Below are positions 1,380 through 24,965 of a DNA stretch of 64,000 bases, piece after piece. A program made the translations under genes and the position numbers. Source of the DNA: Parvicella tangerina (GTDB lineage: Bacteria > Bacteroidota > Bacteroidia > Flavobacteriales_D > Parvicellaceae); the NCBI RefSeq assembly GCF_907165195.1, contig NZ_OU015584.1, positions 3,296,978 through 3,360,977 on the forward strand. Direction: 5' to 3'. Under the pieces are notes generated by a model. That model did not search any database, had not been told where the DNA came from, and worked only from the letters and a program-made list of their open reading frames with translations. Within the stretch, counting starts at the first letter, position 1, and each line of letters opens with the position of its first letter.

Positions 1380-1397
1380 TTTATTAATTTTTAGTTA

Positions 1398-3985: not shown

Positions 3986-4036
3986 AATCTAAATCTAAAA
4001 CAAGGTCAAAGGATAATCCCCTGACCTTTTGTGTAA

Positions 4037-4195: not shown

Positions 4196-4229
4196 ACCGT
4201 TGTTATTTATTGATTTCAGATTAAACATA

Positions 4230-5410
4230 TTAATGGCTGTGTTCAGCCTCTCCTTTTTTCAATTCAGCCATTAGGTTGTAAGCATTATTCCATGCAATTA
4301 AAGTTCCCTCTAATAAAGGCTCGAAAAGCTTGATTTCGAGCCATCCTCCATCTTTGACACCGACAGCAACTTCAATAGGTTCAAAAGCCCATTTATCAGC
4401 CTCTTTCTTAGCTTTGAATATGTAGTATTTCTCTTCTTCTCTCACCACGGCTTCTTCAGGCAAGGCTTTACTCATATAATCTTCTACAATAATTCTTCCT
4501 TTCACATACATACCTGGAATCAAATGTCCTTCTTTATTATCAATTTTCGCATGAATGAGAACCGCTTTAGGATTTTGTTCAAAGCTTTGACCTACGGAAT
4601 ATATCGTAGCGGTCAATGTTTTATCAGGTACTGATTCAACTGAGAACAATAAATTTTGGCCTTCTTTGACTTTGTGAACATCGGATTCAAACACGAAAAG
4701 ATCCACATGTACATGCTCATTATCAATAATTTCAAACATACTCGTTTCTGGATTGACATATTGACCAATTTTTACTTCTACAAGCCTTATATAACCATTA
4801 ATAGGGCTTCGAAGGGCCACAGTTTGTGACACTTTATTTTCTTGCAGATTAGAAACACTAATTCCAATCAATTGTAGTTGTGCTTCCAATCCGTTTACAA
4901 CTCCAATTTTTGAATTATAGTCTGATTTAAGTTGTTGAAAATCCTTCCCACTCGTAATCTTGTCTTCATAGAGTTTGGACTGTCGTTCATATTCCTGTTC
5001 CAAAAACTGTAGATCATTCCAATTAGTTATGTATTCTGTCTGTAGTTGAATAAGATCTGGGTGAGCTAGAAAAGCCAATATCTGGCCTTTCTTTACCATT
5101 TCACCTTCCGTTACTTCTATGCTTTTGACATTGGCGCCAATTACTGCAGTAACCTCAGCTTGATTTTGTGGAGACACTTTTAATTCACCATTAGCCTCAA
5201 CATAAGTCCCGAGATTTCTTTTTGGCAGAGTGTCAACCTTGATTCCAAGAGCATTGAATTGATCTTCTGAAAAGTGAATTTCGTCTCCATGCTCTTCTTC
5301 ACTGTGTCCATGACCATGATCATGTTCATCATGTCCTTCGCTTTCATTGCTAGCACATGATACCAGCAATAGAAAGAAAAATGCTATATATATATATTGT
5401 TCTTTTTCAT
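4230..5410 (-). CDS. czcB: CzcB-type RND adaptor lipoprotein, signal peptide out of frame
   Basis: A membrane-fusion adaptor of the HlyD/CusB type: His-rich N-terminus (HDEHDHGHGHSEEEHGDE), a lipoyl-like half, an alpha-hairpin (ITNWNDLQFLEQEYERQ...), a second lipoyl-like half (VALRSPINGYIRLVEVKIG) and a beta-barrel. It would link the inner-membrane pump to the outer-membrane channel. The open frame begins only at a TTG (5369), inside what should be a lipoprotein signal. The ATG at 5408-5410, 11 bases after the CzcA stop, reads into a stop within a TA tract (5385-5396). Removing one TA unit gives MKKNNIYIAFFFLLLVSC joined to the frame, a complete lipoprotein signal with lipobox L-V-S-C. The gene is therefore either switched off, damaged or misread. 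Confidence 0.85.
5385..5396. repeat. (TA)6 tract in the adaptor signal-peptide codons
   Basis: Six TA units (followed by one more T) lie five codons after the expected ATG of the adaptor gene. In the present length the reading frame from that ATG stops within the tract; with five units (or eight) it is open through the whole lipoprotein. Slippage of such a tract would switch the gene on or off. Confidence 0.8.
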
Positions 5411-5421
5411 TTATTAAATTT

Positions 5422-8400: not shown

Positions 8401-9786
8401 AGGAATAAACACAATTAAAATGATCAACTGCCCAAAAAAAGCAGAATTCATCATTTTACTGGCAGATTTTTTAGCTATTTCATCACGATCTTCTGCGTTT
8501 ATCTTTTGACCTTTTAGGAGCTTGTCATGCATTAAGAAAACAGTACCCTCTACTATAATTACGGCTCCATCCACTATGATTCCGAAATCAATTGCACCTA
8601 AGCTCATAAGGTTCGCCCATACCCCAAAAACATGCATTAGAATAAAAGCAAACAATAATGACAATGGAATGGTCGAAGCAACTATCAATCCTCCTCTCCA
8701 GTTTCCTAAGAGAAATACCAGCACGAAGATTACGATTAGTGCCCCTTCAATTAAGTTTTGACTTACAGTGCCTGTTGTTTTGGCGATTAAGTCGCTCCTA
8801 TCTAAAAAGGGTTCTATCCTTACACCATTCGGGAGTGATTTTTGGATTTCATCTATTCGCTCTTTTACGGCATTAATAACATCATTTGAATTAGCTCCTT
8901 TAAGCATTAAAATCATACCACCAACGGCTTCTCCTTTGCCATCTTTCGTAAACGAACCGTACTTAATCGCTTTACCAAATTGAACTGTAGCTACATCTTT
9001 TACTGTGATCGGAATACTGTTAACATTTTTTATAACGATATGTTCAATATCTTCAAGTGTTCTGGCTAGTCCTTCTCCTCTTATAAAGTTAGCGTAATGG
9101 TCTTTTTCAATATATGCTCCGCCAGTATTTTGGTTGTTTCCTTCCAAAGCACTAAAAACTTCAAGCATCGTAACATTCATGTTCTTTAGTTTGTCAGGAT
9201 CAACAGTAACTTCATATTGCTTGACATCACCACCAAACGCATTTACTTCAACAACCCCAGAGACCATTGACATTTGTCTTTTAACAATCCAGTCTTGAAT
9301 GGTTCTTAGATCAACTGGAGAGTATTCATCTTTGTGTGCCTCATCAACTTCAAGGGTGTATTGATAGATTTCTCCGAGTCCTGTTGAGATTGGTCCCATC
9401 TCAGGTTCCCCAAATTCTGATGGAATGTCATTTTTTACTTGATTTAGCTTTTCAGACACCAATTGCCTCGGCAAATAGGTACCCATATCATCCTCAAATA
9501 CTATGGTAACTACTGAAAGGCCAAACCTTGAAACAGATCGTATTTCAACTACACCTGGCAAATTTGACATGGCAATTTCTACGGGATATGTAACAAACTG
9601 CTCAATGTCTTCAGTTCCCAAATTTGGAGCTTGGGTGATAACTTGAACCTGATTATTAGTGATGTCAGGTACAGCATCAAGTGGTACTTTGGTCATACTC
9701 CAAAAACCACCTGCTATTAATGCAACCGTCATAAGGCCAATCAATAGCTTATTCTTTATTGAAAAATTTATTATTTGATTAATCAT
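5422..9786 (-). CDS. czcA: CzcA-type RND heavy-metal pump fused to a TolC-like channel
   Basis: A 1454-residue protein. Residues 1 to about 1035 form a heavy-metal RND transporter with the TM4 pattern DFGIIVDGAVIIVE, which fits the HME1/HME2 (Co, Zn, Cd, Ni) groups rather than the Cu/Ag pumps. From about residue 1070 it is an outer-membrane efflux protein of the CzcC/TolC type. Fusions like this are known in Bacteroidota. The junction keeps a signal-peptide-like stretch (MSNRKNLKPNGSLAS, a hydrophobic run, then FSGKSQ), which could thread the channel part through the inner membrane or be cleaved. It works with the adaptor downstream to expel metal across both membranes. Confidence 0.9.
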   Translation of the reverse strand: MINQIINFSIKNKLLIGLMTVALIAGGFWSMTKVPLDAVPDITNNQVQVITQAPNLGTEDIEQFVTYPVEIAMSNLPGVVEIRSVSRFGLSVVTIVFEDDMGTYLPRQLVSEKLNQVKNDIPSEFGEPEMGPISTGLGEIYQYTLEVDEAHKDEYSPVDLRTIQDWIVKRQMSMVSGVVEVNAFGGDVKQYEVTVDPDKLKNMNVTMLEVFSALEGNNQNTGGAYIEKDHYANFIRGEGLARTLEDIEHIVIKNVNSIPITVKDVATVQFGKAIKYGSFTKDGKGEAVGGMILMLKGANSNDVINAVKERIDEIQKSLPNGVRIEPFLDRSDLIAKTTGTVSQNLIEGALIVIFVLVFLLGNWRGGLIVASTIPLSLLFAFILMHVFGVWANLMSLGAIDFGIIVDGAVIIVEGTVFLMHDKLLKGQKINAEDRDEIAKKSASKMMNSAFFGQLIILIVFIPILALQGVEGKMFKPMALTFMFAMIGVMILCLTYVPMMSAWFLRPGAKKKSWGDKLVEFFERIYDKTLGGVLKVGKWVVLGALTLLAFAVFTFSKMGGEFIPQLDEGDIAFHAILKPGSSLSETIETTTEIEQIVMEEFPEVKHIYSRIGVADVPTDPMPMDIADVFVILHPEDEWGTGRSKSELIDMMKERLEKVPGVNYEFTQPIEMRFNELITGVREDVAIKLYGDDLDILSEKVEEISKIIAGIDGIGDMKAEATSGLPQITVHYNRAKVAQYGLQINELNSLIQTAFAGGIAGVIFEGEKRFDLVVRLDEEHKQSIDDINNLYVTASNGSQIPMKEIADISYQSGPMQISRDNTNRRSYVGINVRGRDVKSLVEEIKQKLDAELTLPPGYYIRYGGAFENLERASARLQIVVPIALGLIFILILFALKSFKQSLMIYMAIPLAAIGGVFFLWMRGMPFSISAGVGFIVLFGVAVLNGLVLISGWNELKDEGVNDLNERIKLGAKRRIRPILLTALTDILGFLPMAISTSAGAEVQQPLATVVIGGMITATFLTLFVLPILYKWTEQMSNRKNLKPNGSLASILIVVGLMTLPFSGKSQTDSVITDVDQAITIGFQNNNEVKLAENQILLSQQNKKGTFNPSKTNFNGQYGQYNSTENDFGFSISQDFEFPTVYTSQWNLAKEQVVGSELELEVVRNKLRWLIRKGWNQLAYLNEYNKLLVYEDSLMSKFVEAAQIRYEVEETNLLEKVTAESKLLEIKNMLSILNADNLIQQKEISILLNDSIGLNFMPNELIKMEMAYLQDSSLLANNPFLAFTNQQVEIASAKIKASKAQFMPDLSVGYFNQSLIGTPTQSGSEATMSDRFTGVQFGINIPLFFGSYKSKIISAKIEIENAQINSDSYFISINNQFEIQLQQLYKEMQNLSYYEITGLPQSDLMIKNAQQSFESGSIDFMSYLQILERGIQVKKDYIYSIKKHNEAAINMAYLLGQ

Positions 9787-9889
9787 AACAATTTTATTCT
9801 TGTAAACATGACCCTGTTATATACAAGGAACGACTTAAACGCACGTGCTAATAAACACCAAACGTTCATGTAGAATTCAATTAGAACTC

Positions 9890-10372
9890 TTAGCAAGAAT
9901 AAAAAGGAGGCCCTCTTTGAGCGAAATCAAATTTATAGGCTTGACTTTCAAAACCAACAGGTGGTCCAGTGATACGAATCAAAGAAGTCAATATTTTTTG
10001 AATAATAAGCTCAGAATTACGAAAGACAGCGAAATCAGATGCTTGGTCATTATCTTGTTGAAATGATTTTTTAAACTGAACATTTTCGTGATTTACAAAA
10101 TATTCAGCATTAAATCCTGAACACTGATGATGAAAATCGCTCAACAAACACACTAAGTAATCCACCCATCCTTCATCATAATGATCTCCGTGTGCAATAT
10201 GATTGTCAAGATCAAGATCAGTGCTCCCAATAGCATGATCATGTTGATAGTGATGATTACTCTCGGCAAGGCCTTCACAGTGAATTTCACAATGAGGGGT
10301 TAACGAATGACTAAAGCCTAACAAATAAGCAAATAGTAAAGTGATTGATATGCCAGATTTAAGTGCCTTCAC
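9890..10372 (-). CDS. exported His/Cys-containing protein heading the metal operon
   Basis: A 160-residue protein with a signal peptide (about 1-23) followed by potential metal ligands: PHCEIHCEG, SNHHYQHDH, HIAHGDHYDEG, and LVCLLSDFHHQC. The C-terminus ends in RGPPFYSC. Similar small proteins precede czc-type pump genes in Bacteroidota, to my recollection. It is the first gene of the minus-strand run, about 100 bases upstream of the pump. A periplasmic metal-binding or sensing role is inferred, not shown. Confidence 0.65.
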   Translation of the reverse strand: MKALKSGISITLLFAYLLGFSHSLTPHCEIHCEGLAESNHHYQHDHAIGSTDLDLDNHIAHGDHYDEGWVDYLVCLLSDFHHQCSGFNAEYFVNHENVQFKKSFQQDNDQASDFAVFRNSELIIQKILTSLIRITGPPVGFESQAYKFDFAQRGPPFYSC

Positions 10373-10551: not shown

Positions 10552-10857
10552 ATGGCAACAAGCATTATTACACCAGATGATCTCGAGCAGTTTAAATACG
10601 ATCTCTTGGAAGACATCAAACAACTCCTCGACAAAAAACAAGACAAAACGCTAGCGGTTAAAGAATCGGAATGGATCAAATCGCATCAAGTGCAAAGACT
10701 CTTAGGGATCTCTCCAGGCACTTTACAAAACCTCAGACTGAATGGCACCATTCCTTACTCAAAAGTAGGTGGCGTCCTCTTTTATAAAAAGACCGATATC
10801 CAGCACATTCTGGAGCAAAACATGAGAAACAGAGAAAATTCAATTACAAACCTTTAA
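10552..10857 (+). CDS. excisionase-like HTH DNA-binding protein
   Basis: A 101-residue protein with a helical N-terminal arm (about 1-40) and a MerR/excisionase-type helix-turn-helix (about 45-93: IKSHQVQRLLGISPGTLQNLRLNGTIPYSKVGGVLFYKKTDIQHIL). The family binds short DNA sites on mobile elements and acts in excision or gene control. The next gene is a paralogue with the same layout, so the pair may act together or come from a duplication. It is the first plus-strand gene after the metal operon. Confidence 0.8.
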   Translation: MATSIITPDDLEQFKYDLLEDIKQLLDKKQDKTLAVKESEWIKSHQVQRLLGISPGTLQNLRLNGTIPYSKVGGVLFYKKTDIQHILEQNMRNRENSITNL

Positions 10858-10868
10858 TACTTATAGCA

Positions 10869-11159
10869 ATGACAAATTCACAACAAATCAGAAAAATAGC
10901 AACAGAGATCAATCAATTGAAACTAGGTCTAAATACCCTAGCTGATAATTCTACCCACCTTAAACACCAATGGATGACTGGACTAGAAGTTGGCCATGCA
11001 CTTAACATGAGCGCAAAAACACTTCAGCGGTTAAGAAAGAGCGGTTCACTTCCCTTCAGTAGAGTAAATGGTAAAATCTATTACAAACGATCGGATGTAG
11101 ACCAAATGCTAGAAGACAATTACCAATTAAGAATGTGTTCATGCGGTTGTAAAAAGTAA
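10869..11159 (+). CDS. excisionase-like HTH DNA-binding protein (paralogue of the previous gene)
   Basis: A 96-residue protein with the same plan as its upstream neighbour: a helical arm, then WMTGLEVGHALNMSAKTLQRLRKSGSLPFSRVNGKIYYKRSDVDQML (HTH, about 38-84). It ends with a Cys motif (MCSCGCKK) that the neighbour lacks. Its stop overlaps the next start (TAATG), so it is translationally coupled to the replication-type gene downstream. Confidence 0.8.
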   Translation: MTNSQQIRKIATEINQLKLGLNTLADNSTHLKHQWMTGLEVGHALNMSAKTLQRLRKSGSLPFSRVNGKIYYKRSDVDQMLEDNYQLRMCSCGCKK

Positions 11160-11833
11160 TGAAGCAAAGCGTAAACTATATCAAGCACCTTGAAGGTTGG
11201 TCGGATAGGATCTGTCATGATGATCGGTTAACACCTCATCATGTCAGCTTGTATTACGCCTTGTTTCATCAATGGAATTTAGCCAAATTTCAAAACCCGA
11301 TTTCTATCTGTAGATCTGAGCTCATGCTGGGTAGTAAGATCGGATCTGCTAACACCTACACCAAATGCCTCAAGCAGCTAGACGAATGGGGGTATATTCA
11401 TTACCTTCCTTCGTTTAACCCCACTCGGGGATCTTTGGTCAACTTGTACAGTTTTGATAAAAGCAATAGTAAAGGTGCTGATAAGGGTAGTAATAAAGCT
11501 AGTGAAATAGCCGTGCGACCTTCATTAAACAATACAAACAATTTAAACCTTCAAACAACTAAAACGAATAAGACAAAAACTTCGTTTTCTCCCCCTTCTT
11601 TAGAAATGGTAAAAGCTTTTTTTATTGAAGTGGAATCTACTCAGGCTGAAGGTGAGAATTTCTACAATTACTTTGAGTCCAATGGTTGGCTGGTGGGAGG
11701 AAAAGCGAAAATGAAGAATTGGCAAGCTGCCGCAAAAAATTGGATCAAGCGCTCCGCAAAGTTTAACCCTTCCAGCACAACTCGAAAAAACGCATCTGTG
11801 AACGAAGATAAAGACTACTCAACACCGCTATAA
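11159..11833 (+). CDS. replication-type winged-helix protein (DnaD/phage replication organiser-like)
   Basis: A 224-residue protein. The N-terminal part (about 1-100) looks like a winged helix of phage or plasmid replication organisers (LTPHHVSLYYALFHQWN...SRSELMLGSKIGSANTYTKCLKQLDEWGYI). A polar linker rich in Asn, Thr and Lys follows, then a C-terminal motif (FYNYFESNGWLVGGKAKMKNW...AAKNWIKR) seen in DnaT/DnaD-like proteins that pair with helicase loaders. The next gene is a DnaC-like ATPase, which supports this reading. In the cell it would help load the replicative helicase on a mobile element. Confidence 0.65.
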   Translation: MKQSVNYIKHLEGWSDRICHDDRLTPHHVSLYYALFHQWNLAKFQNPISICRSELMLGSKIGSANTYTKCLKQLDEWGYIHYLPSFNPTRGSLVNLYSFDKSNSKGADKGSNKASEIAVRPSLNNTNNLNLQTTKTNKTKTSFSPPSLEMVKAFFIEVESTQAEGENFYNYFESNGWLVGGKAKMKNWQAAAKNWIKRSAKFNPSSTTRKNASVNEDKDYSTPL

Positions 11834-11886
11834 TTACTTCACCCTTCCTAAGGGGATTGGGGGGGGAGGACCAAACAAACAACACC

Positions 11887-12522
11887 ATGAACAACCCAAC
11901 ACTTTGTCCATACGAGCTAAAAAACAACTACCGCATATATGACTTCAAGAAGTCATGGAGGTTTCTCGAGCAGCTGGGCAAAAATCAGTTTGGTCCTAAA
12001 TTCAAATTAGATCCAGCTGATCGCAAGATCATTTACCAGCTCTTGATCTATTTTATTAGAGATGAAGAAAACTGTAAAAAACACCACCTCGATTTGGACA
12101 AAGGAATTCTCCTCAACGGTCCGGTAGGATGTGGCAAAACTTCTTTGATGCAACTCATGCGTCACTTTGCTTTACCTAAACATTACGTGGTCAAATCAAC
12201 TCGTGAAATTGCCGCTCAGTTCAATATTGAGGGGTACTCGGTTATTCAACGCTTCGGACGTTCACACCAAGCCATTTTCTGTTTTGATGATCTCGGAGTT
12301 GAAAGTAACATGAAATACTATGGTACCGAGTGCAACACCATCTCTGAAATTCTGCTCCAGCGTTATGATCTTTTTATTGCACATGGCACGGTTACGCATG
12401 CTACTACAAATCTGAATGCACAGGAATTGGAAAAGCTTTATGGTAATCGGGTAAGGTCTAGGATGAGGGAGATGTTTAATTTGATATCGTTTGATAAAGG
12501 AGTTATTGACAAGCGGAGATAA
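11887..12522 (+). CDS. DnaC/IstB-like AAA+ ATPase (helicase loader)
   Basis: A 211-residue ATPase with Walker A GPVGCGKTS, Walker B IFCFDDLG and a sensor region (THATTNLNAQELEKLYGNRVRSRMREM) typical of DnaC/IstB loaders. I chose ATG 11887; starting 30 bases earlier would read through a G-rich, repeat-like leader (including eight consecutive G at 11859-11866), which is unlikely to be coding. Together with the winged-helix gene upstream it forms a two-gene replication module of a plasmid or integrative element, although no transposase, relaxase or integrase is present. Confidence 0.8.
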   Translation: MNNPTLCPYELKNNYRIYDFKKSWRFLEQLGKNQFGPKFKLDPADRKIIYQLLIYFIRDEENCKKHHLDLDKGILLNGPVGCGKTSLMQLMRHFALPKHYVVKSTREIAAQFNIEGYSVIQRFGRSHQAIFCFDDLGVESNMKYYGTECNTISEILLQRYDLFIAHGTVTHATTNLNAQELEKLYGNRVRSRMREMFNLISFDKGVIDKRR

Positions 12523-12590: not shown

Positions 12591-12785
12591 ATGAATAGAA
12601 TCAAAGAAGTACTTGAAGAGAAAGGAATCAAACAAGTTTGGTTAGCTGAGAAGCTTGGCAAAAGTTACAACATTGTCAATGGCTATGCTCAAAACAGAAG
12701 CCAACCAAGCCTGGAAGATTTAACCAAAATTGCAGATATCTTGGATGAAGATGTCAGGGATCTAATAAAAAGTAATAAATCATGA
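12591..12785 (+). CDS. XRE-family regulator of the restriction operon
   Basis: A 64-residue helix-turn-helix protein (MNRIKEVLEEKGIKQVWLAE, then KLGKSYNIVNGYAQNRSQPS). A start at 12552 would add 13 residues before the domain; I prefer the Met at 12591. Its stop overlaps the hsdR start (ATGA), so it is the first gene of the restriction-modification operon. It is probably a controller that delays or balances expression, as C proteins do in other restriction systems. Confidence 0.75.
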   Translation: MNRIKEVLEEKGIKQVWLAEKLGKSYNIVNGYAQNRSQPSLEDLTKIADILDEDVRDLIKSNKS

Positions 12786-15232
12786 ATAAAAAAGATTTAT
12801 CAGAAGCTGACATTAAGGCCAAATACATTACGCCAAGTATACTCAAATCAGGTTGGGATGAGTACACGCAAATCGGGAGAGAGATTTACTTTACGGATGG
12901 GCGTATTTATGTGAAAGGTAAAATGACTAGAAGGGGCAAGCGTAAATTTGCCGACTACATCCTGTTTTATAAACCTAACGTTCCAATAGCTATAATTGAA
13001 GCGAAAACAAATTCTCATACTTTAAGAAGCGGAATTCAGCAGGCACTAGGTTATGCAAATACCTTGGATATTCCTTTTGTTTTTAGTAGTAATGGTGATG
13101 GTTTTCATTTCCATGATAAAACGGCTACAGATGGTCAAATTGAAAAAGAACTTAGTTTAGAAGAATTCCCTAGCCCAGCAGAATTATGGACAAAATATAA
13201 AAAGTACAAGGGAATAGAAACTGAAGAGCAAGAAGAGATTGTTACTCAAGAATATTTCTCCGATAATTCAGGTAGAACTCCACGTTATTATCAGCAAATA
13301 GCGATTAACCGAACAGTTGAAGCGGTTGCAAAAGGTCAAGAAAGAATATTGTTAGTCATGGCCACAGGAACAGGAAAGACCTACACAGCTTTTCAAATCG
13401 CTCACAGGTTGTTCAAATCAAAAGCCAAACGAAAAATATTATTCCTGGCAGATAGAACTGCTCTAGTTGATCAAACATTGAGAGGTGATTTCAGACACTT
13501 CAAGGATGCAATGACAGTGATCAAAAAGAAGGTTGTTCAGCAAGATGGTAAGGATGTTTTGGTTTCTAACAAAAAAAGGGGAATTGATACAGCAGATAAG
13601 GCGTTCGATATATTCTTGGGTTTGTACCAAGGCTTGAGTAATTCGGATCCAGAAGTTCCAGATGCATTTAAAGATTTTAGTCCTGACTTTTTCGATTTAA
13701 TAATTGTTGATGAATGTCATAGGGGTAGCGCAAAAGAAGATAGTAAATGGCGTGAAATTTTGAATTACTTCCAATCTGCGACACACATTGGTTTAACTGC
13801 TACTCCTAAAGAAACGAAAGAGGTATCCAACATAGAATATTTTGGGGACCCAATTTATACTTACTCCCTAAAGCAAGGTATTGATGATGGTTTCTTAGCT
13901 CCTTATAAAGTGGTGAAGGTCACTTTAGATATAGACGCAGAGGGCTGGCGTCCTCCAAAAGGGTTTCTTGATAAAAAAGGAAATCCGGTAGAAGATAGAA
14001 TCTATAATAGAACTGATTTTGATAAAAACATAGTTGTTGAAGAACGTAGAAAAATAGTGGCCGCCAAGATTACTGAGTTCTTGAAAGGATATGATCGTTA
14101 TGCTAAATCGATTGTATTCTGTATTGATATAGAGCATGCTGAAGGAATGCGCACAGCCTTGGTAAATGCAAATCCAGACTTGTACCAGGAGAATAATAAA
14201 TACATCATGCAAATTACTGGTGATAATGAAGAGGGAAAAAGGCAGCTAGATAACTTCATTTCGCCAAGTGAAAGATATCCAGTAATCGCAACTACATCAA
14301 AATTAATGACAACTGGTGTTGATGCGCAAACCTGTAAGCTCATTATCCTAGATAGTAATATTGGTTCAAAAACTGAATTCAAGCAAATTATTGGTAGAGG
14401 TACAAGGTTAAATGAGGAGCATGGTAAAACCTATTTTACAATCATGGATTTCCGCAATGCAACTGATCATTTTGCCGACCCTGAATTTGATGGTGATCCT
14501 GAAATGATAAAGGAAACAGTTGAGGATGAAGATTTATCAGAGGTTGATGATATCGCACCAGAAGATCCAATTATTGATGAAATTGATGGTGATGAAATTG
14601 ATTTTCCAGATGAACCAGAGGATTATCCAGAAATTAAGGGAGGTGGTATCATTATAGAAGATGGTCCAATTGAAAAAATTAGAGTTGACGGAGTGAGTGT
14701 ATCTGTCATGGGAGAAAGTGTACAATATCTGGATAATGATGGTAAATTGATAATTGAATCCTTCAGTGATTACACTAAGAAAAGCGTGAATAACCAATAC
14801 CGCACGTTAGACGAGTTCCTCAACAGATGGAATAATGAAAATAAGAAAGCAGTGATAGTTCAAGAGTTGGAAGAACAGGGAGTGTTTTTTGATGAGCTAA
14901 AAGAAAAAGTTGGAAAGGAATACGACCCATTCGATTTGATATGTCACATTGTATATGATGCTAAACCATTAACACGAAAAGAGAGAGCTGAAAATGTGAA
15001 GAAGCGTAATTATTTCACAAAATATGGAGAGCAAGCGCAAAAGGTATTAGAAAGTTTATTGGATAAATATGCAAATGATGGCCTAGTGACCATTGAAAGC
15101 ACTGAGGTTTTAAAGCTGGATCCATTGAATAAACTCGGCACTCCACTTGAACTAGTTAAAGCTTTTGGAGGCAAACCACAATACTTGAGTGCATTGAAAG
15201 AACTAGAACAAGAATTATATAAGATAGCTTGA
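12782..15232 (+). CDS. hsdR: type I restriction enzyme R subunit
   Basis: An 816-residue motor-nuclease. The N-terminal PD-(D/E)XK nuclease shows Asp58 (KFADYILF) and Glu73-x-Lys75 (IIEAK). The helicase follows with Walker A MATGTGKT (193-200), DECH (310-313), TATPK (about 339) and the QIIGRGTR motif VI. An acidic linker (EDEDLSEVDDIAPEDP) precedes the C-terminal part, which would contact the methylase. It cuts unmodified DNA after translocation together with HsdM and HsdS. It overlaps both neighbours. Confidence 0.93.
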   Translation: MNKKDLSEADIKAKYITPSILKSGWDEYTQIGREIYFTDGRIYVKGKMTRRGKRKFADYILFYKPNVPIAIIEAKTNSHTLRSGIQQALGYANTLDIPFVFSSNGDGFHFHDKTATDGQIEKELSLEEFPSPAELWTKYKKYKGIETEEQEEIVTQEYFSDNSGRTPRYYQQIAINRTVEAVAKGQERILLVMATGTGKTYTAFQIAHRLFKSKAKRKILFLADRTALVDQTLRGDFRHFKDAMTVIKKKVVQQDGKDVLVSNKKRGIDTADKAFDIFLGLYQGLSNSDPEVPDAFKDFSPDFFDLIIVDECHRGSAKEDSKWREILNYFQSATHIGLTATPKETKEVSNIEYFGDPIYTYSLKQGIDDGFLAPYKVVKVTLDIDAEGWRPPKGFLDKKGNPVEDRIYNRTDFDKNIVVEERRKIVAAKITEFLKGYDRYAKSIVFCIDIEHAEGMRTALVNANPDLYQENNKYIMQITGDNEEGKRQLDNFISPSERYPVIATTSKLMTTGVDAQTCKLIILDSNIGSKTEFKQIIGRGTRLNEEHGKTYFTIMDFRNATDHFADPEFDGDPEMIKETVEDEDLSEVDDIAPEDPIIDEIDGDEIDFPDEPEDYPEIKGGGIIIEDGPIEKIRVDGVSVSVMGESVQYLDNDGKLIIESFSDYTKKSVNNQYRTLDEFLNRWNNENKKAVIVQELEEQGVFFDELKEKVGKEYDPFDLICHIVYDAKPLTRKERAENVKKRNYFTKYGEQAQKVLESLLDKYANDGLVTIESTEVLKLDPLNKLGTPLELVKAFGGKPQYLSALKELEQELYKIA

Positions 15233-16167
15233 TGGATTTAGGACAGATAGAAAAAGTAGACCTGAGAAAGGCATGGAAACATGAGGCATTGAATTTTACA
15301 AAATGGCTCGCAAAAGAAGAGAATATTGTTATTCTCGCAGACGAGTTAGACATTGAAATTGAAAATGTAAAACCAGAGGAATCCGCAGGAAGGTATTCTG
15401 TAGATATACTAGCTGATGATCTCAATACCAGACGAAAAATAATAATTGAGAATCAACTAGAAGCGACTGATCACAAGCATTTAGGTCAGCTTCTAACTTA
15501 CGCTTCAGCACATGATGCAAGTATAATAATATGGGTTGTCAAGGATTACACGGAAGAGCACAAACAAGCAATTGACTGGTTTAACAAGCACATGCCAGAA
15601 GAAATTAGTTTTTTCTTAGTTCAAATTGAACTTTGGAAAATTGGCAACTCTCTTCCAGCCCCGAAATTCAATATCATATCTCAACCCAACAATTGGGCGA
15701 AAACCATCAAAAAGGCAGCTTCTCAGGAAAAAGGAAATCCATCTGAACTTAAACTGCTACAACAAAGGTTTTGGGGCGAAATGAAAGACTATTTGAATAA
15801 TAGTGAGAATTCATATAACATTTCCTTTGGTCGAACTCCTCGTCCACAGCATTGGTATGATGTCTCTATAGGAACAGCAAAGGCAAATATCTCTTTTTCT
15901 TTTAACTCTAAACAATCTTTGATTAGTTGCGAACTATACATCAAAAATGATGCTCAAATATTTGATAGAATTATTAAAGATGAAGCTAAAATAAAATCTG
16001 TTTTAGGAGATGACTTACAATTCCTTGAACTACCAGACAAAGCTGCATTTAGAATCATTAGATCCCTTGCTTGTGATCCATTTGATGAAAACAAATGGCC
16101 TCAATATTTTGAATGGCTAATTACAAACGGAGAAAAATTTCAAAAAACATTTAAAAAATATTTTTAA
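15232..16167 (+). CDS. DUF4268 protein inserted in the type I R-M operon
   Basis: A 311-residue protein. The N-terminal half has a nuclease-like core (SVDILADDLNTRRKIIIEN, then QLEATDHKHLGQLLTY) with Asp58 and Glu73-Asn-Gln75, an ENQ variant of the PD-(D/E)XK active site; the C-terminal half matches DUF4268 (about 170-305, beginning near KLLQQRFWGEMKDYL). It overlaps the hsdR stop (TGATG) and the hsdM start (TAATG), so it is made with them. I use ATG 15232; the TTG at 15229 is unlikely. Such genes recur next to restriction systems. The function is unknown: a DNA-end binding or extra nuclease subunit is possible. Confidence 0.8.
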   Translation: MDLGQIEKVDLRKAWKHEALNFTKWLAKEENIVILADELDIEIENVKPEESAGRYSVDILADDLNTRRKIIIENQLEATDHKHLGQLLTYASAHDASIIIWVVKDYTEEHKQAIDWFNKHMPEEISFFLVQIELWKIGNSLPAPKFNIISQPNNWAKTIKKAASQEKGNPSELKLLQQRFWGEMKDYLNNSENSYNISFGRTPRPQHWYDVSIGTAKANISFSFNSKQSLISCELYIKNDAQIFDRIIKDEAKIKSVLGDDLQFLELPDKAAFRIIRSLACDPFDENKWPQYFEWLITNGEKFQKTFKKYF

Positions 16168-17603
16168 TGGCAAACGTAGGAGCTGTAATAAGTAGTATTA
16201 GAAACATCATGAGACAAGACAGAGGTATCTCTGGAGACGCTCAAAGATTAGAGCAATTAGGATGGATGCTCTTTTTGAAAATCATTGATGATAAAGACCA
16301 AGAATTAGAAATTACCAAGGATGATTATGAGTCTGTTATTCCAGAGAAATTTCAATGGCGAAATTGGGCAGCAGATACAGAGGGAATTACTGGTGATGAA
16401 TTACTAGAGTTTATTGACAGCAATGCAGAAGGTAATAGAGGATTGTTTGCTACACTCAGAAACTTATCAAGCAACACCAACCCGAAAAGGGCAGCCATTG
16501 TAAAAGAGGTTTTTGAAGGGTCAAATAACTTCATGAAGTCAGGATACGAAATGCGTAAGGTCATCAACAAGCTGAATGAGATTGACTTTAATAGCTCAAA
16601 GGATAAACAAGTATTTGGAGATATCTATGAAAGTATTTTAGTTGAATTAAGAGATGCTGGAAATAAAGGAGAATACTACACACCAAGAGCGGTCACACAA
16701 TTGATGACTAAAATGACCAATCCTAAATTAGGTGAAAAGGTATTGGATCCTGCTGCAGGTACAGGTGGTTTCTTAACAGAAGCTATAGATCACATTCGTT
16801 CTGAGTATGTCCATACGGTTGATGATGAACATATCTTACAGAATAGCATTACTGGCTGGGAGTTAAAACCAGTAGCTTACGTCTTGGGACTGACAAACCT
16901 GATTCTTCATGAAATTGATATACCAGAATACATCTATCGTGATAGTCTGAAAGTTGAGTACAATGGGATTAAAGCAAAAGATAAAGTAGATGTTATTCTG
17001 GCAAATCCGCCATTTGGAGCAAGTATTGCTGATGGTGTAGAAACTAACTTTCCTTCAAGTTATAGATGTAAAGAATCTGCCGATTTATTTGTAATTCTAA
17101 TGCTTCAATTATTAAAGCCTAATGGTAGGTGTGCTATAGTTTTACCAGATGGATCAATTACAGGTGATGGTGTTAAAGCTAGAATACGTGAAAAACTATT
17201 AACAGATTGTAATCTTCATACCATTATCAGATTACCTCAAAGCACCTTTTTTCCTGCAACAGTTAGCACTAACCTTTTGTTTTTTGAAAAGGGTAGCCCA
17301 ACTAAAGAAATTTGGTATTATGAGCACAAATTACCTGAAGGTCAAAAGTCCTATTCAAAAACTAAGCCTATTCAGTTTAACGAATTTCAACCAATAGTAG
17401 ATTGGTGGGATAATCGGGTTGAAAATGATCAAGCATGGAAAGTAAAGGTTGAAGACTTAAAAGATTGGGATTTAGATATTAAAAACCCTGTTCAAGAGGA
17501 AGAAGAAAAAATGCCTTCATCAAATGAGCTTTTGGAAAAATTAAATAAATCATTCGAAAAAAGCCAAGGTATTATTAAAGAGATAAAGCAATTAGTGGGG
17601 TAA
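16167..17603 (+). CDS. hsdM: type I R-M system DNA methyltransferase M subunit
   Basis: A 478-residue N6-adenine methyltransferase. Residues 1-135 are the helical HsdM N-terminal domain; then FGDIYESILVE...GEYYTPRAVTQLM leads to the SAM-binding motif DPAAGTGGF (194-202) and the catalytic NPPFG (280-284). The C-terminal coiled tail (EEEEKMPSSNELLEKLNKSFEKS) would contact HsdS. With HsdS it marks host DNA and, with HsdR, restricts foreign DNA. Start and stop overlap the flanking genes by one base each. Confidence 0.95.
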   Translation: MANVGAVISSIRNIMRQDRGISGDAQRLEQLGWMLFLKIIDDKDQELEITKDDYESVIPEKFQWRNWAADTEGITGDELLEFIDSNAEGNRGLFATLRNLSSNTNPKRAAIVKEVFEGSNNFMKSGYEMRKVINKLNEIDFNSSKDKQVFGDIYESILVELRDAGNKGEYYTPRAVTQLMTKMTNPKLGEKVLDPAAGTGGFLTEAIDHIRSEYVHTVDDEHILQNSITGWELKPVAYVLGLTNLILHEIDIPEYIYRDSLKVEYNGIKAKDKVDVILANPPFGASIADGVETNFPSSYRCKESADLFVILMLQLLKPNGRCAIVLPDGSITGDGVKARIREKLLTDCNLHTIIRLPQSTFFPATVSTNLLFFEKGSPTKEIWYYEHKLPEGQKSYSKTKPIQFNEFQPIVDWWDNRVENDQAWKVKVEDLKDWDLDIKNPVQEEEEKMPSSNELLEKLNKSFEKSQGIIKEIKQLVG

Positions 17604-18969
17604 TGAAGTACAAAAATCTTGAGGAATACATAGAAAAATGGCATGTCTCAAAAGTTGATTGGGACGGTCAAGAGGAATTACAAGTGTTAGGCGTATCTAA
17701 TGTTGAAGGAATAACAACTACCACGCATAAAAAGTCAAAAGATTTATCAAAATATTTGGTTATTGAGCCTGGTTGTTTTGCTTATAATCCATATCGTATT
17801 AATGTGGGTTCTATAGGCTTAACTCCTGCCAATGTTTATGGTTTAGTCAGTCCTGCGTATACAGTTTTTAAGGTTAAAAAGAATAAGGTTTTACCTGAAT
17901 TGTTGCTAGATTTTTTGAAATCCTTTGATGGTCTTCAACAAATAAACAAGTATGCAAGAGGAACAGTAAGAAAAGCGCTGAGGTATGAAGATCTTTGCAA
18001 AATAAATGTGTCTTTTCCATCTTTTAAAGAGCAACTAAGAATTCTTGATCATAAAAAGGAAGTAGAAGAAAAAAGCATACAATTAAATAATGAAATTGAA
18101 CAGCAATGGAATGATATTGGCCAGTTAAAACAATCAATCCTCCAAGAAGCCATACAAGGTAAACTCACCCAAGAATGGCGAGAGCAAAACCCAAATGCAG
18201 AACCTGCAAGCGAATTATTAAAAAGAATCAAAGCAGAAAAAGCGCGACTAATAAAAGACAAGAAAATCAAAAAAGAAAAGCCTCTTCCTCCAATTATTGA
18301 TGAAGAGATTCCTTTTGATTTACCAAGAAATTGGGAGTGGTGTAAGTTGGGAGAGATGTATGAAATTGTTCGTGGTTCCTCTCCTCGTCCAAAAGGCGAT
18401 CCCAGATATTGGTCAAACGGAAGAACTTCGTTTCACTGGATAACAATCGCTGACTTCAAACCCTTCACTGAGAATGGTTGTTTAATCGATACTAAAGGAT
18501 TTTTAACTGAAGAAGGTAGTAAACATAGCCGAAAGGTGGGTCCTTCAGATATTATCATAGCCTGCAGTGGTGTTGGAAGTGTCGGTAAATCTGTAAAATT
18601 AGGAATAGAAGGATATATATATATGATGGTTTGCTTGGGATTAGAAATATAAGTTCCGAAACCTTGAAAGAGTATTTATCCTTATTTATCAAAAACAAAG
18701 AAATTGAAATCTATTCTGTAGCAACTGGTGCAAACTGGTTGAACATAAATACGGATTTACTTAAAAACTATATAGTTCCGGTTCCGCCTATTGATGAGCA
18801 AAAAATAATGGTAAAAAAAGTTTATCAGTTAATGAATAAATGCCAACTTATAGAGCAAGAAGTTGAAAAGAATGAGCAATATACAAATCAGCTCATACAA
18901 GCAGTTTTAAAAGAGGCTTTTTCCTCAGAAAAAGAGGAGGTTAATGACTCTAAAAATGTTGAAGTATGA
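17603..18969 (+). CDS. hsdS: type I R-M specificity subunit, frame broken at a TA tract
   Basis: The specificity subunit chooses the DNA site through two target-recognition domains (TRD1 about 1-150, TRD2 about 240-400) joined by conserved helices (WNDIGQLKQSILQEAIQGKLTQEW). The frame from 17603 stops at 18652 after 349 residues, and the rest of TRD2 and the C-terminal helix are in another frame up to 18969. The shift falls in an (AT)6 tract at 18613-18624. With five units the sequence reads EGYIYDGLLGIRNISSETL, a normal HsdS, 454 residues in all. As read, the protein lacks half of TRD2 and its last helix, so it would have altered specificity or none. Confidence 0.88.
18613..18624. repeat. 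(AT)6 tract inside hsdS
   Basis: Six AT units within the second target-recognition domain. Six units send translation to a stop at 18652; five (or eight) restore the full-length specificity subunit. The tract length and the size of the frame error match those in the metal-efflux adaptor gene at 5385. Confidence 0.85.
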
Positions 18970-21584: not shown

Positions 21585-22634
21585 ATGTATTGCTGTGTTT
21601 CATGTTTTAATAGTAAATATCTAAGAGATATTATTCAGTCTGATCCACGTATTGGGAATTGTGATTATTGTGCCTCAGTAGATGTTTCAGTCTACGAACC
21701 TAGAGAATTAATTCACTTTTTTAGTTCCATTTTAAATTTGTATGAAGTATCTGAGAATTCAGAAAAGGGGATAGCAGACCTTATTAAAGAGGACTTTGAA
21801 GATAATATTTTCAGTAATTCGGTAATGGATGTTAGCAGTTTGCTTTTTGAAATTTCAAAAGGTGAACCAGAGGATTATATTGCATTATTTGAAAATAACG
21901 TAGCTTCCATTAATCAGCGAGAAGAAACTGCAAACCAGGTAGAAGAGATCCATAATATTTGGGATAAATTTAAGGATGAAATAAAGAATGTAAACCGTTT
22001 CCACATCAACAATGCCATTGACTTACAAAGCCTTGAAACTCTATTTAAGGATGAAGCATTTCATTCTAAGATCATGACAGGTAAGATTTTTTATCGAAGC
22101 AGAATTGCCCCAAGTCCTGAAGGTCATCCAGATGATAAAATGGGAAATCCACCAGCACATTTAGCAACTTCAGGTCGGGCAAATCCTAAAGGGATATCTT
22201 ATTTATATGTTGCTGATGAAGCCATTACATCTATTTATGAAGCACGTGCATCATTATTTGACTATGTGTGCGTTGCAGAATTTAAACTTTTAGAAAATCT
22301 TAAGGTTTTAAACTTAAGACAACCAATTTACGATCCAATCAGTTGGGCAGAAAAGGAGGCCATTGAAGATTATTTAGTTTATGTACCATTCATTAAGACC
22401 TTACAAAAAGAACTATCTCTTCCGATAAGATCAAAAGACAAGGAAATTGATTATTTACCAACGCAATATTTGTCAGAATTTATTAAGTCCTTGGGGTTTG
22501 ATGGCGTAGAGTTTCAGAGTTCCCTCAGAAAAGAAGGATACAACCTTGCTATATTTAATCCAGAGAAATTAATATTTAATCAATCGTGTGTTTATGAGAT
22601 ATCGAATATTGATTTAACCCATGATCAATTATAA
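21585..22634 (+). CDS. RES-domain protein with HEPN/RES N-terminal domain
   Basis: A 349-residue protein. The N-terminus has two Cys pairs that could bind zinc (Cys4/Cys7 and Cys26/Cys29) and then EPRELIHFFSSILNLYE, as in the HEPN/RES N-terminal domain 1. From about 165 to 345 it is a RES domain: Arg171 (FYRSR), GRANPKG (197-203), YLYVA and Glu219 (IYEAR). RES domains are ADP-ribosyltransferase-like; the well-studied ones are toxins that break down NAD+. No small Xre partner of the usual Res-Xre pair is present, so the two upstream proteins may restrain or trigger it. The gene ends at a strong terminator. Confidence 0.85.
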   Translation: MYCCVSCFNSKYLRDIIQSDPRIGNCDYCASVDVSVYEPRELIHFFSSILNLYEVSENSEKGIADLIKEDFEDNIFSNSVMDVSSLLFEISKGEPEDYIALFENNVASINQREETANQVEEIHNIWDKFKDEIKNVNRFHINNAIDLQSLETLFKDEAFHSKIMTGKIFYRSRIAPSPEGHPDDKMGNPPAHLATSGRANPKGISYLYVADEAITSIYEARASLFDYVCVAEFKLLENLKVLNLRQPIYDPISWAEKEAIEDYLVYVPFIKTLQKELSLPIRSKDKEIDYLPTQYLSEFIKSLGFDGVEFQSSLRKEGYNLAIFNPEKLIFNQSCVYEISNIDLTHDQL

Positions 22635-22665: not shown

Positions 22666-22671
22666 TTTTTG

Positions 22672-22760
22672 CGGTGGTAGAGGGATTCGAACCCCCGGTA
22701 CTGTAGCCAGTACTATCGAGTTTCAATCGACTGCATTCAACCGGACTCTGCCATACCGTT
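22672..22760 (-). tRNA. class II tRNA-like gene, Ser-type body with GAA at the anticodon, defective acceptor stem
   Basis: Read on the minus strand this folds as a tRNA: T-arm GGGGG/TTCGAAT/CCCTC, long variable arm GTACTG-GCTA-CAGTAC, anticodon stem GTCGA/TCGAT with loop TTGAAAC, and a D-arm (GCA...TGC) like that of tRNA-Ser. Discriminator G fits Ser. The anticodon in this fold is GAA, which normally reads Phe codons. The 3' acceptor strand TACCACC should pair with GGTGGTA, but the 5' side reads AACGGTA, so only four pairs form; it looks like loss of one GGT. CCA is not encoded. I call it a pseudo-tRNA or a tRNA-like domain of a larger RNA rather than a working tRNA. Confidence 0.6.
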
Positions 22761-22762
22761 TA

Positions 22763-23440
22763 ACAAACGAATGAAATAGCACAAGGTTGCCAATGTATCC
22801 AAACTAAATTTCAGCAGGAGAGAAATCACAGGTTATAAGGTATTCACTTCACGCCCACTATGCTTGTGCCATAAATGAATATGGCATCTGCGCTCCTACC
22901 CTTCTGTTCTCGTTCATTCGCAGCTACTCTGCCTAAGCTACCGCATAGTCACCGCTGCTTGCTGGTTAGTGCTCGCCTGCGGGTCGCTACGGGCTATTTG
23001 GGCTGACACAGTTTTCAATCCCAGTTTGTCAGTGCGCATCGCATAGCTGCTCCGCACACTTCTCAAACCCCACGCAAGCATTACTCATTCATACGCCTCC
23101 ATTTCATTGCGCCTCATTCAATCGTAAACCTTGCTTTAGCCAACACACACCAAAAACTCCGCCAGCCCAGCCGATAAACGGTAGGTAGCTATCATGCTCG
23201 AAACTCACACCACATAGCTACCACCCTTGCTCCGCTCGCAGACGGCTCGCAATTGGGCTTCGCCAGATAACCTGTTGGAATTCTAATTAGCTAGAAAAGA
23301 GTAAAAATAAATCCAAAGGTAAGGGTCCGCACATCCCTCCCCACTTCAGGCAGTAAAGGTCAAGCCAAAGGTTTGCTCCTCAAAACCTTGACAGCCTTGC
23401 CCTACCCTTCTCTAATGGCTTTCTTTTTTCTCTTTTTCTT
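22763..23440 (-). ncRNA. ORF-free, GC-richer, hairpin-rich stretch; candidate structured RNA
   Basis: No credible reading frame, and visibly richer in G and C than its surroundings. It contains several perfect hairpins: TGCCATA/TATGGCA (22867-22886), CTGACA/TGTCAG (23003-23032), GGTAGCTAT/ATAGCTACC (23184-23222), and competing GTCAAG/CTTGAC and AAGGTTT/AAACCTT (about 23356-23392). On the minus strand it would lead into the tRNA-like gene and its terminator, forming one RNA unit of about 0.8 kb. Large structured RNAs such as GOLLD and ROOL are known to lie beside tRNAs. Strand and identity are inference; a decayed mobile-element end is the main alternative. Confidence 0.35.
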
Positions 23441-23457
23441 TTAAATAAAATGAAGTT

Positions 23458-23643
23458 ATGGAAGTTTTTTTTAATCACTTAAATCCTGCAGTTATTAAGT
23501 GCATTATGCTAAAGATGAGTAAGCGTGAACTGGATGAGGTTGCTGAATTTATTAAACAACAATTAATCGAATTGGATCCAGGTAATAAACGAAATATGTA
23601 TTTGAAGTTGTATCAATGGTACCTGAATCGGTTTGTGGGGTAG
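23458..23643 (+). CDS. small hypothetical protein
   Basis: A 61-residue helical protein (MEVFFNHLNPAVIKCIMLKM, then SKRELDEVAEFIKQQLIEL and a KLYQWYLNRFVG tail). The ATG is preceded by AATGAAGTT, and a start at the internal Met (23506) is also possible. It is followed within ten bases by a strong hairpin terminator, which supports it being expressed. No family recognised. Confidence 0.5.
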   Translation: MEVFFNHLNPAVIKCIMLKMSKRELDEVAEFIKQQLIELDPGNKRNMYLKLYQWYLNRFVG

Positions 23644-23698: not shown

Positions 23699-23923
23699 TC
23701 AATGTTCTTGCTCTTCATTGGAGCTCATTTGGAATTTAGCTTTGATTCGTTTCCAAATCCATTTGCTGAACTGTGTGAAAACGAAACTTACTACCGCTCC
23801 CAATGCGCCTAATACAACTGTCCGAGTAATATCGGAAGTGGCAAGGTGTGGGATAATAGAAAGAATCGTTCCACCGATCGTAGCGGCCACTGTATCATTT
23901 TCTATGTGATGCATGAATGCCAT
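23699..23923 (-). CDS. small membrane protein (holin-like topology)
   Basis: About 74 residues from the Met at 23923 (MAFMHHIENDTVAATIGGTI), seven bases after the stop of the upstream gene; a start at 23977 would overlap that gene by 47 bases and is less likely. Two hydrophobic segments are separated by a polar SDITRT turn, and the basic, charged tail (KWIWKRIKAKF...NEEQEH) should be cytoplasmic. Size and layout recall holins or small membrane toxins, but nothing more specific can be said. It is the last gene of a three-gene minus-strand unit. Confidence 0.55.
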   Translation of the reverse strand: MAFMHHIENDTVAATIGGTILSIIPHLATSDITRTVVLGALGAVVSFVFTQFSKWIWKRIKAKFQMSSNEEQEH

Positions 23924-23930
23924 ACGGTCT

Positions 23931-24206
23931 TTAGTCCGCTTCAGGATCTGGAGAATCAAAGCAATCGGACTCTGCATCTTCTACCACCGCTTGACTCATT
24001 GCTGAAACTACTGTTCCTCCTACAATTAAATAACCACCAATGGTCGTTACTATTGCAGGCAACACAACAGGAGCTGCTACGATGGAAGTTCCTGCAGCAG
24101 CGATCACCAATCCCACCAATCTCATCTTCTTAAAGAACGGGGGAGTTTCCTCCCCGCATCTTTTGAAGTACGACTTCAGTTTATCATTAAATTTCTCTTT
24201 ATCCAT
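23931..24206 (-). CDS. small membrane protein with Gly/Ala/Val-rich hydrophobic hairpin
   Basis: A 91-residue protein: a basic N-terminus (MDKEKFNDKLKSYFKRCGEE), two adjoining hydrophobic segments rich in Gly, Ala and Val (about 29-71), and an acidic tail (EDAESDCFDSPDPEAD). It follows the 249-residue gene by nine bases and precedes the next small membrane gene by seven, so the three form one operon. No family recognised. A pore-forming or lipid-interacting peptide is possible from composition. Confidence 0.6.
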   Translation of the reverse strand: MDKEKFNDKLKSYFKRCGEETPPFFKKMRLVGLVIAAAGTSIVAAPVVLPAIVTTIGGYLIVGGTVVSAMSQAVVEDAESDCFDSPDPEAD

Positions 24207-24215
24207 AATAATAGA

Positions 24216-24965
24216 TTATTGAACTTCAACGATACTGAGTGCATTGTACGCTCCATTCTTTAGCGTGTATTGATCTCCATTCACCTCTTGGAAGAACTCA
24301 ACCATTAACAAGTAAAGGTCTGTTCCTGATCCAGCTGGTGCCGCATTTGGAGTTAACACAACATTCGAAGTCACCCCGTCAATCGGTAGATTGACTGCAT
24401 TGGATTCTTGAACATCGTAATCTCCTGTTGCGAAATCAACTTTCGCCCATGCTCCTCTCAATGTGATGTGTGTTGCTCCTGGTGCATTATTCAGATCATT
24501 AATCGGAATCAAGTCAACTAAATTGATCACACCGGTATTCACATCCACATCATAAGGATTGAACAGAATTGAACCTAACACCGCATTCTCATTGAAATTG
24601 AAATCTTTCAATAGTAGTTTGGCATTAGCATTCGCAATACCTACTCCTACATTTCTCTTTCCACGAACGCTGGTTGTATCTAGATTCTTGATCTGTGTCA
24701 TGAGCTTTGTCAATCTTGAAGTCACACGATTGTCTGAAGCATTCTGCATCATGGTTCGAATTGCATCTCTAAGCAATTTGCCTGATTTAGCAGATCCACC
24801 AAATTCAGATCCATTCTCTCGCGTTCTTTCAAACGCTGGATCCTTTTTGATTCGGTCGGCATCAACCCCTCCCTTCTCTCTTGCTAAATAGCCATCCTTG
24901 CTTTTGTAAAAGGAAAGATCTCCGATTTTTCCTTCTAGCTTGATTATGCCTTTCTGTCTTGCCAT
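24216..24965 (-). CDS. conserved Bacteroidota protein of unknown function (MARQKG type)
   Basis: A 249-residue protein whose N-terminus (MARQKGIIKLEGKIGDLSFY, then KSKDGYLAREKGG) I have the impression of seeing in many Bacteroidota genomes as an unnamed hypothetical. The first 110 residues are basic (RTRENGSEFGGSAKSGKLLRDAI); the second half is beta-rich and ends near YNALSIVEVQ. There is no signal peptide. The basic-then-beta layout with two small membrane proteins in the same operon would suit a structural or particle-like protein, but no homology evidence is available here. Confidence 0.65.
   Translation of the reverse strand: MARQKGIIKLEGKIGDLSFYKSKDGYLAREKGGVDADRIKKDPAFERTRENGSEFGGSAKSGKLLRDAIRTMMQNASDNRVTSRLTKLMTQIKNLDTTSVRGKRNVGVGIANANAKLLLKDFNFNENAVLGSILFNPYDVDVNTGVINLVDLIPINDLNNAPGATHITLRGAWAKVDFATGDYDVQESNAVNLPIDGVTSNVVLTPNAAPAGSGTDLYLLMVEFFQEVNGDQYTLKNGAYNALSIVEVQ

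Follow-up and report, generated by a model that had tools for sequence, protein, structure and literature searches.

An apparently undescribed large folded element scattered in Bacteroidota, with a copy in Parvicella tangerina

The locus in Parvicella tangerina

The window analysed here is the whole stretch of 64,000 nucleotides taken from the genome of P. tangerina (contig NZ_OU015584.1, positions 3,296,978 to 3,360,977). The features surrounding the stretch of interest, 22763–23440, are collected in Table 1. A possible left core of an island, a type I restriction cargo and a gene with a RES domain precede this stretch on the plus strand, and a MARQ-type gene follows it on the minus strand. 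By reading, a further piece of HsdS extends to 18969. A large metal-efflux gene cluster lies to the left of the island on the minus strand (954–10372) and resembled, by reading, the cargo of other loci that carry element A. Two small membrane-type proteins are encoded on the minus strand between the MARQ gene and element B (23699–24206), and similar ones were seen by reading at another locus of the same genome (L099).

The base composition and coding content of the stretch were evaluated directly. No ORF of at least 50 aa occurred between the stop of the RES gene (22634) and a 61-aa ORF starting at 23458, and hence none lies in 22763–23440. The G+C content in 300-base windows over 22700–23449 was 0.46–0.51, versus 0.29–0.44 around it: 0.29–0.37 on the left (from 20000), 0.34–0.36 immediately to the right and 0.37–0.44 further right. 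C exceeded G on the plus strand of this region. Perfect inverted repeats were plentiful and included 9-bp ones, among others 23184–23192/23214–23222 and 22828–22836/23267–23275. The original prediction had described an ORF-free stretch with deviant base composition and perfect hairpins, and all of this was confirmed. The stretch is, however, made of two elements, A and B, and not of one. The segment 22761–22825 had no match in the loci used for local comparison. The ORF at 23458–23643 was considered as a DUF6943-like gene and was rejected by comparison.

Table 1. Coordinates of the features at the locus, numbered within the window
Feature	Position	Strand	Remarks
Possible left island core, two HTH_17 proteins and two conserved proteins	10552–12522	+	
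Type I restriction cargo	12782–18969	+	HsdR 12782–15232, HsdM 16167–17603, HsdS 17603–18652
Upstream cargo gene, RES domain	21585–22634	+	Weak HEPN/RES N-terminal match
tRNA-like gene, anticodon GAA (Phe)	22671–22760	-	ARAGORN, 90-base body
Element A, window copy, 453 nt	22826–23278	+	Orientation as written is that of the upstream cargo gene
P1 left arm (terminal helix), ACAGGTTAT	22828–22836	+	Inverted repeat; arms co-change between copies
Helix P2	22920–22958	+	GCAGC 22920–22924 with GCTGC 22954–22958, by direct reading
Most conserved core, CTCGCCTGCGGGTCGCTACGGGCT	22972–22995	+	By direct reading
Helix P3	22974–22981 facing 23237–23244	+	One mismatch in the window copy
Helix P4	23000–23168	+	Inverted repeat, GGGCTG 23000–23005 with CAGCCC 23163–23168
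Helix P5	23184–23222	+	Inverted repeat, GGTAGCTAT 23184–23192 with ATAGCTACC 23214–23222
P1 right arm (terminal helix), ATAACCTGT	23267–23275	+	Inverted repeat; arms co-change between copies
TACCTTTG, TAnnTTTG (-7) type, left end of B	23314–23321	-	By direct reading
Element B, small folded	23316–23409	+	Outer arms 23316–23325 and 23400–23409
MARQ-type protein	24216–24965	-	Relatives downstream of A in other loci

Copies, edges and neighbours of element A

Two further places with element A were found in the P. tangerina genome, at about 2.318 Mb and about 1.813 Mb. Matches occurred in five of the 60 genomes searched, namely its own genome and four genomes (G038, G049, G053 and G056) from two other families of the same order; the other 36 genomes of the same family gave no match to A. 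The homologous part by local comparison corresponded approximately to 22948–23278 of the window, and side-by-side reading of the copies widened the homology to the inverted terminal arms. The core pattern CTCRCCTGCGGGTCGCTRCGGGCT was present in 67 stretches among 84,980 species genomes. These stretches represented 61 assemblies, counted by accession prefix, and some were the same contigs as loci from the genome search. According to their titles, they belonged to Bacteroidota (Cytophagales, Flavobacteriales, Bacteroidales, Sphingobacterium and others) except for two contigs from a Rickettsiales-labelled bin, perhaps a binning error. A strict form of the core with one mismatch allowed was found in 1 of 395 genomes of the phylum, P. 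tangerina itself, and its distribution is sporadic.

An nhmmer profile of 27 copies and 600 positions matched most copies across nearly all of its positions, and L019 and others partially. The window copy, a short version within a family of 440–860 nt, was matched with an E-value of 1.3e-51 at model positions 167–527. The ends of A varied among the copies (CGCAGG/CCTGCG, AGCAGG/CCTGCT and AACAGG/CCTGTT). A search of 72,556 plasmid and 50,697 phage records with the window copy found nothing. One match of the core pattern in a viral contig (L104) was discarded because it was unrelated high-G+C coding sequence by reading. Rfam, which includes the GOLLD, ROOL, OLE and HEARO families, gave no match to A at the gathering level in the window or at E-values up to 5 in eight loci, and the five matches in those eight loci were a tRNA and weak ones outside A. 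No description of element A was found in the literature that was searched, most subscription papers being outside that search. Element A is apparently an undescribed large folded element, scattered in Bacteroidota. The original prediction had named further copies and an Rfam search as its checks: copies are present in the same genome, in relatives and in the 67 core-pattern stretches, and no Rfam family matches A.

The edges of A were explored by comparing loci with each other. In many cases, loci from different families had kilobases in common with identity above 90%, which makes recent horizontal transfer clear. Moreover, 48 pairs among 23 loci aligned only over A and its leader, at 88–98% identity, and the alignment stopped at both edges. 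Breakpoints were collected from 54 loci with both ends placed, leaving out breaks at contig ends. Of the 136 left breaks, measured from the left arm, 63 lay between -190 and -140 and 16 between -139 and 0; 52 were within A and 5 were more distant. The left boundary was about 165 nt outside the inverted repeat of A. Of the 168 right breaks, 40 coincided with the right arm and 28 preceded it by 30 nt; another 60 were at other places within A, and 40 lay past the arm. In many of the loci displayed, an unrelated gene ended with its stop codon at the left edge or shortly before it. The nearest upstream ORF was on the same strand as the orientation of A in 60 of 61 loci and 38 of 39 protein families, L078 being the exception, and the upstream genes comprised, by reading, tyrosine recombinases, a RelE-like toxin, HNH-, DUF262- and DUF1016-like proteins and metal-efflux proteins. 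Hence, A is a discrete, sharp-ended unit 3' of a co-oriented gene and is near-identical across families. Homologous recombination between copies of A could be an alternative source of the sharp breaks. Each locus of 3–8 kb carried one A, without tandem arrays within these stretches, except L051 (the same region as G053:C16). There, two parts of A were separated by an insertion sequence, with an ORF of about 464 aa that is a transposase by reading, and part of A was duplicated.

Recombinase genes accompanied some of the copies. Sixteen tyrosine-recombinase ORFs similar to those of locus L100 were found in 9 of the 67 loci, two each in seven of them, and all 16 were plus oriented and upstream of A. 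No such recombinase was found downstream of A in the stretches of the 67 loci, and none at all in the stretches of 58 of these loci or in the 64-kb window. In the P. tangerina genome, a recombinase pair lies 0.9 kb upstream of another copy of A, and L100, a locus of this genome, carries two pairs of Xer-like recombinases with Phage_integrase domains. The four L100 recombinases, to which this comparison was confined, scored at most 101 bits against the integron integrase model TIGR02249, whose cut-off is 265. Relatives of the module at 10552–12522, whole or partial, were located upstream of A in L025, L028, L050, L056 and L075, and the HTH_17 left module was also present at L099. L031 had one weak HTH match, reversed and downstream of A. 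In five recombinase loci (L019, L037, L044, L048 and L055), Rhs-like fragments were seen by reading after A, as if the unit were located in or near Rhs genes.

By direct reading, the tRNA-like gene beside the window copy combines a long variable arm of the Ser/Leu kind with an acceptor stem whose three outer pairs do not match; it may be a pseudogene, or a tRNA that mis-decodes. No second copy of its 3' end occurred in the genome within 3 mismatches; hence, nothing pointed to duplication of a tRNA end. A tRNA beside A was absent from all 67 loci, the sole tRNA lying 4.4 kb downstream in L021, and no tRNA was found in 11 other loci (overlapping, six places). The tRNA-like gene was judged to be a neighbour and not a defining part of A. 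The suggestion of one RNA with a tRNA-like end and a terminator did not hold, and a single RNA including the tRNA was rejected as the general case because of this absence from the other loci.

Element B contains an inner hairpin, AAGGTCAAG...CTTGAC, followed by a pyrimidine tract. An octamer of the type TAnnTTTG, the -7 promoter type of Bacteroidota, occurred also in other copies of B. B was located downstream of A in 31 of the 67 loci; among the 43 whose downstream sequence reached 2.5 kb or more, it was present in 29. It also occurred at L099 and in the window. In L014 and L043, a third folded-looking intergenic block with a B-like build, containing AAAGTTACAGG, was seen between A and B.

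Of the 30 loci in which 3.9 kb or more of sequence followed A, 27 had a DUF6943, DUF6266 or MARQ-type gene, assigned through representatives, within 4.3 kb downstream (exceptions L019, L052 and L078). At the cut-offs applied, the MARQ protein had no match in Pfam, NCBIfam or PHROGs, and its predicted structure (mean pLDDT 73) gave no match at E ≤0.001. Kinship between MARQ and DUF6266 was considered and rejected, as no relation was detectable. There were eight MARQ matches in the P. tangerina genome, its own included (also L084–L090), and one of the matches was seen by reading near a Cas9-like gene in L103.

Divergent copies share one branched secondary structure

Folding of the single sequence was examined against dinucleotide shuffles. 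For 22761–23440, the RNA z value was 0.04 on the minus strand and -2.78 on the plus strand; folded as DNA, the window copy of A had a z value of -2.11 on its minus strand. Single-sequence folding of the stretch says little, and the comparative evidence is decisive.

The set for covariation comprised copies with an exact complementary match of the terminal arms of at least 7, that is 55 sequences including near repeats, which were reduced to sets of 27 and 39. This selection biases helix P1 alone. The A loci were not independent, recent ancestry being common to many. For the 27 copies, RNAalifold gave -116 on the plus strand and -124 on the minus strand, versus approximately -10 to -20 for column-shuffled alignments (eight each). 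Nested pairs stood near the top of the ranked covariation, including the terminal helix, P2 (among the most strongly covarying helices of A) and a hairpin near the right end. Unpaired columns likewise ranked high, as is expected among related sequences. For P5, a helix was also predicted at the corresponding place of the alignment. The 71 pairs predicted independently from both strands were Watson-Crick in 87.7% of cells, compared with 31–35% when the partners were slid by 1–3 columns and at most 72.2% in 100 shuffles. Double Watson-Crick changes occurred in 39 of the 71 pairs, versus 19–25 in the slid controls and at most 36 in 100 shuffles. Furthermore, the best-aligned subgroup of 23 copies had 159 common pairs in an extensive branched structure. 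Divergent copies of A thus share one branched secondary structure with compensatory changes, which bears on the covariation check that the original prediction had named. Its proposal of an unknown class stood in that A belongs to unlisted large structured elements of Bacteroidota with homologues, covariation and no Rfam match; the limits it had drawn were wrong. A decayed protein gene was rejected, since the ORFs within A are mechanical and the compensatory pairs speak against it.

Which strand folds, and whether as RNA or DNA, was explored with several measures, and the strand tests on A conflict. All 39 copies folded with lower energy on the minus strand. For L016, the z values against dinucleotide shuffles were -3.11 on the plus strand and -2.58 on the minus strand. 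The plus strand was thus better folded relative to shuffles in both copies tested (22761–23440 and L016), and hence the energy advantage of the minus strand is partly composition. Unpaired plus-strand columns had A 0.18, C 0.33, G 0.05 and T 0.45 in subgroup 1 and A 0.18, C 0.32, G 0.11 and T 0.39 in subgroup 2. Read on the minus strand, these are A 0.45, G 0.33, T 0.18 and C 0.05, and A 0.39, G 0.32, T 0.18 and C 0.11, respectively. The unpaired sense strand of RNase P RNA had A 0.40, G 0.23, T 0.23 and C 0.14, a weaker lean to purines than in A. The purine-rich unpaired minus strand favours one folded strand, the minus.

The mismatches pooled over the pairs of A were GT 2.8%, AC 3.5% and the eight other kinds together 11.6%; without P1, the same tally was 2.5%, 3.0% and 12.7%. 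As an RNA control, tRNAs were tried first and were too few, so RNase P RNA from the same order was taken through the same steps. From its 28 matches 22 were kept, after a partial one (L132) and then 5 without the motif GAGGAAAGTCC were dropped, and it had GT 8.3%, AC 1.9% and other 3.7%. The lack of a wobble excess in A counts against RNA only tentatively, the RNase P control being better aligned. Single-sided changes in subgroup 1 leaned to minus-strand wobble (14 AC versus 5 GT kinds), and those in subgroup 2 had no lean (17 versus 15). GNRA loops were few (2 and 4 on the two strands), and no UNCG loop occurred.

Promoter signals were sought in 33 non-redundant right flanks of A, the side on which a promoter for the minus strand would be expected. 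A -7-type octamer was present in 10 of them, compared with a mean of 5.2 and a maximum of 12 in shuffles; one flank had a -33/-7 pair. Six of the 10 octamers (L020, L032, L039, L044, L065 and L071) were the left end of element B. No conserved minus-strand promoter was found beside A in these flanks, and the shared unit ends at the right arm and hence has no promoter of its own there.

Folded DNA, RNA or remnant

The position of A behind defence, metal-resistance and recombinase genes and its spread between families suggest a mobile element that carries cargo and has a folded end. The reading ranked first, held tentatively and below an even chance, is that A is the folded right-hand end of cargo-carrying mobile islands and acts as folded single-stranded DNA in the manner of attC. 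The strand complementary to the cargo coding strand, once single-stranded, would fold into the branched structure, and a recombinase, most likely paired Xer-like tyrosine recombinases, would use the folded A as a landmark. The gene plus A would be excised or joined at A, as integron integrases use attC, and the recombinase would be supplied in trans where none lies upstream. The window copy would be a passive, shortened A behind a block of restriction and RES defence genes, with no recombinase nearby. From these comparisons, we infer that A acts as DNA, which strand is in use, that a recombinase acts and that gene and A are mobile. The sharp ends, co-orientation, upstream recombinases, covariation, absence of a wobble excess and absence of a conserved minus-strand promoter lend themselves to this possible role as folded DNA. 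The absence of arrays, the 58 of 67 loci without a recombinase, the lack of R boxes, the RNA-like unpaired composition, the greater length of A than attC, the minus-strand wobble of subgroup 1 and the many breaks within A tell against it.

A bears some likeness to integron cassettes and their attC sites. In attC sites, the fold is conserved over the sequence, and the lower-energy strand is complementary to the coding strand. Likewise, A lies behind a co-oriented gene, its fold is kept more than its sequence, its lower-energy strand is the complement of the coding strand, and some copies have tyrosine recombinases upstream. However, attC is a short hairpin, several times shorter than A, whereas A has 440–860 nt and is branched. 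The integron end boxes are RYYYAAC and GTTRRRY; compared with this consensus, the ends of A have no R boxes. Unlike integron cassettes, A forms no arrays, and the L100 recombinases stay under the NCBIfam cut-off for integron integrases. Elements with paired or triple tyrosine recombinases, of the Tn554 and RIT types, have adjacent recombinase genes, as do some copies of A, but A is large and folded and has recombinases near it in 9 of 67 loci only. RIT elements carry adjacent recombinase genes on mobile units, and the part of the source consulted describes short inverted and palindromic repeats at their ends and mentions no large folded element there (PMC3414803).

The rival ranked second, and rather unlikely, is that A is a large structured minus-strand RNA, like GOLLD or ROOL, carried by mobile islands. 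GOLLD and ROOL are ornate RNAs of phages and prophages. The size of A, its multibranched fold, its mobile context and the tRNA neighbour of the window copy resemble these RNAs, for which the portion consulted of a published account gives large size, multibranched folds, mobile-element context and tRNA neighbours (PMC12286853). The lower minus-strand energy in every copy, an unpaired composition like that of the RNase P sense strand, the wobble lean of subgroup 1 and the minus-strand -7-like octamer of element B, on the right side of A, all agree with such an RNA, but pooled wobbles show no excess on either strand, unlike in RNase P, and subgroup 2 has no lean. Moreover, the plus strand does better than the minus against shuffles, and the shared unit stops at the right arm with no promoter of its own there. 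The hosts and cargo also differ from those of GOLLD and ROOL, and A has no Rfam match and no tRNA beside it in the 67 other loci. The original prediction of a long minus-strand RNA in the GOLLD or ROOL manner is partly supported by size, multibranched form, mobile context, minus-strand energy and purine-rich unpaired positions, and it is weakened by the missing Rfam match, the missing tRNAs, the missing G-U excess, the shuffle z values and the lack of a conserved promoter. Two further explanations are improbable to the same degree. If A served the cargo mRNA as a plus-strand 3' untranslated structure, with a part in processing, stability or Rho-type termination, its place close behind a co-oriented gene, the G-poor, C/T-rich unpaired plus-strand segments and the plus-strand z values of the two copies tested would fit. 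However, the energy of the plus strand is weaker in all 39 copies, a GT excess is absent, and the length of A and its conservation behind unrelated genes probably far exceed the needs of a terminator. A non-autonomous transposon or remnant, with the pairing kept merely through recency of the copies, would account for the terminal inverted repeats, the near-identical copies across families and the patchy distribution (4 of 59 relatives besides its own genome; with the stricter pattern, P. tangerina alone among 395 genomes of the phylum), but not for the compensatory changes at internal helices of divergent copies, the fixed orientation behind genes or a left boundary well beyond the inverted repeat.

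Returning to folded DNA, a bolder and doubtful extension is that Bacteroidota possess a cargo-capture system of their own, independent of integrons, with a large multibranched DNA tail and paired Xer-like recombinases that act partly in trans; with similarly low probability, this tail, several times larger than attC, would be moved as single strands. If A is a recombination site, it would be a Bacteroidota counterpart of integron cassettes that spreads defence and metal-resistance genes. A is useful as a marker of the end of mobile cargo in Bacteroidota genomes, and it poses a testable question, whether the large folded elements of mobile islands function in the form of RNA or of folded DNA. 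The cargo of A resembles that of defence islands and hotspots in its restriction systems, RES and HipA genes and, by reading, its RelE-like and metal-efflux genes; these islands differ in that the right end here is marked by the folded A and by DUF6943, DUF6266 or MARQ genes. A ties these three gene types to one recurring locus. In L043, a DUF5675 protein adjoins MARQ.
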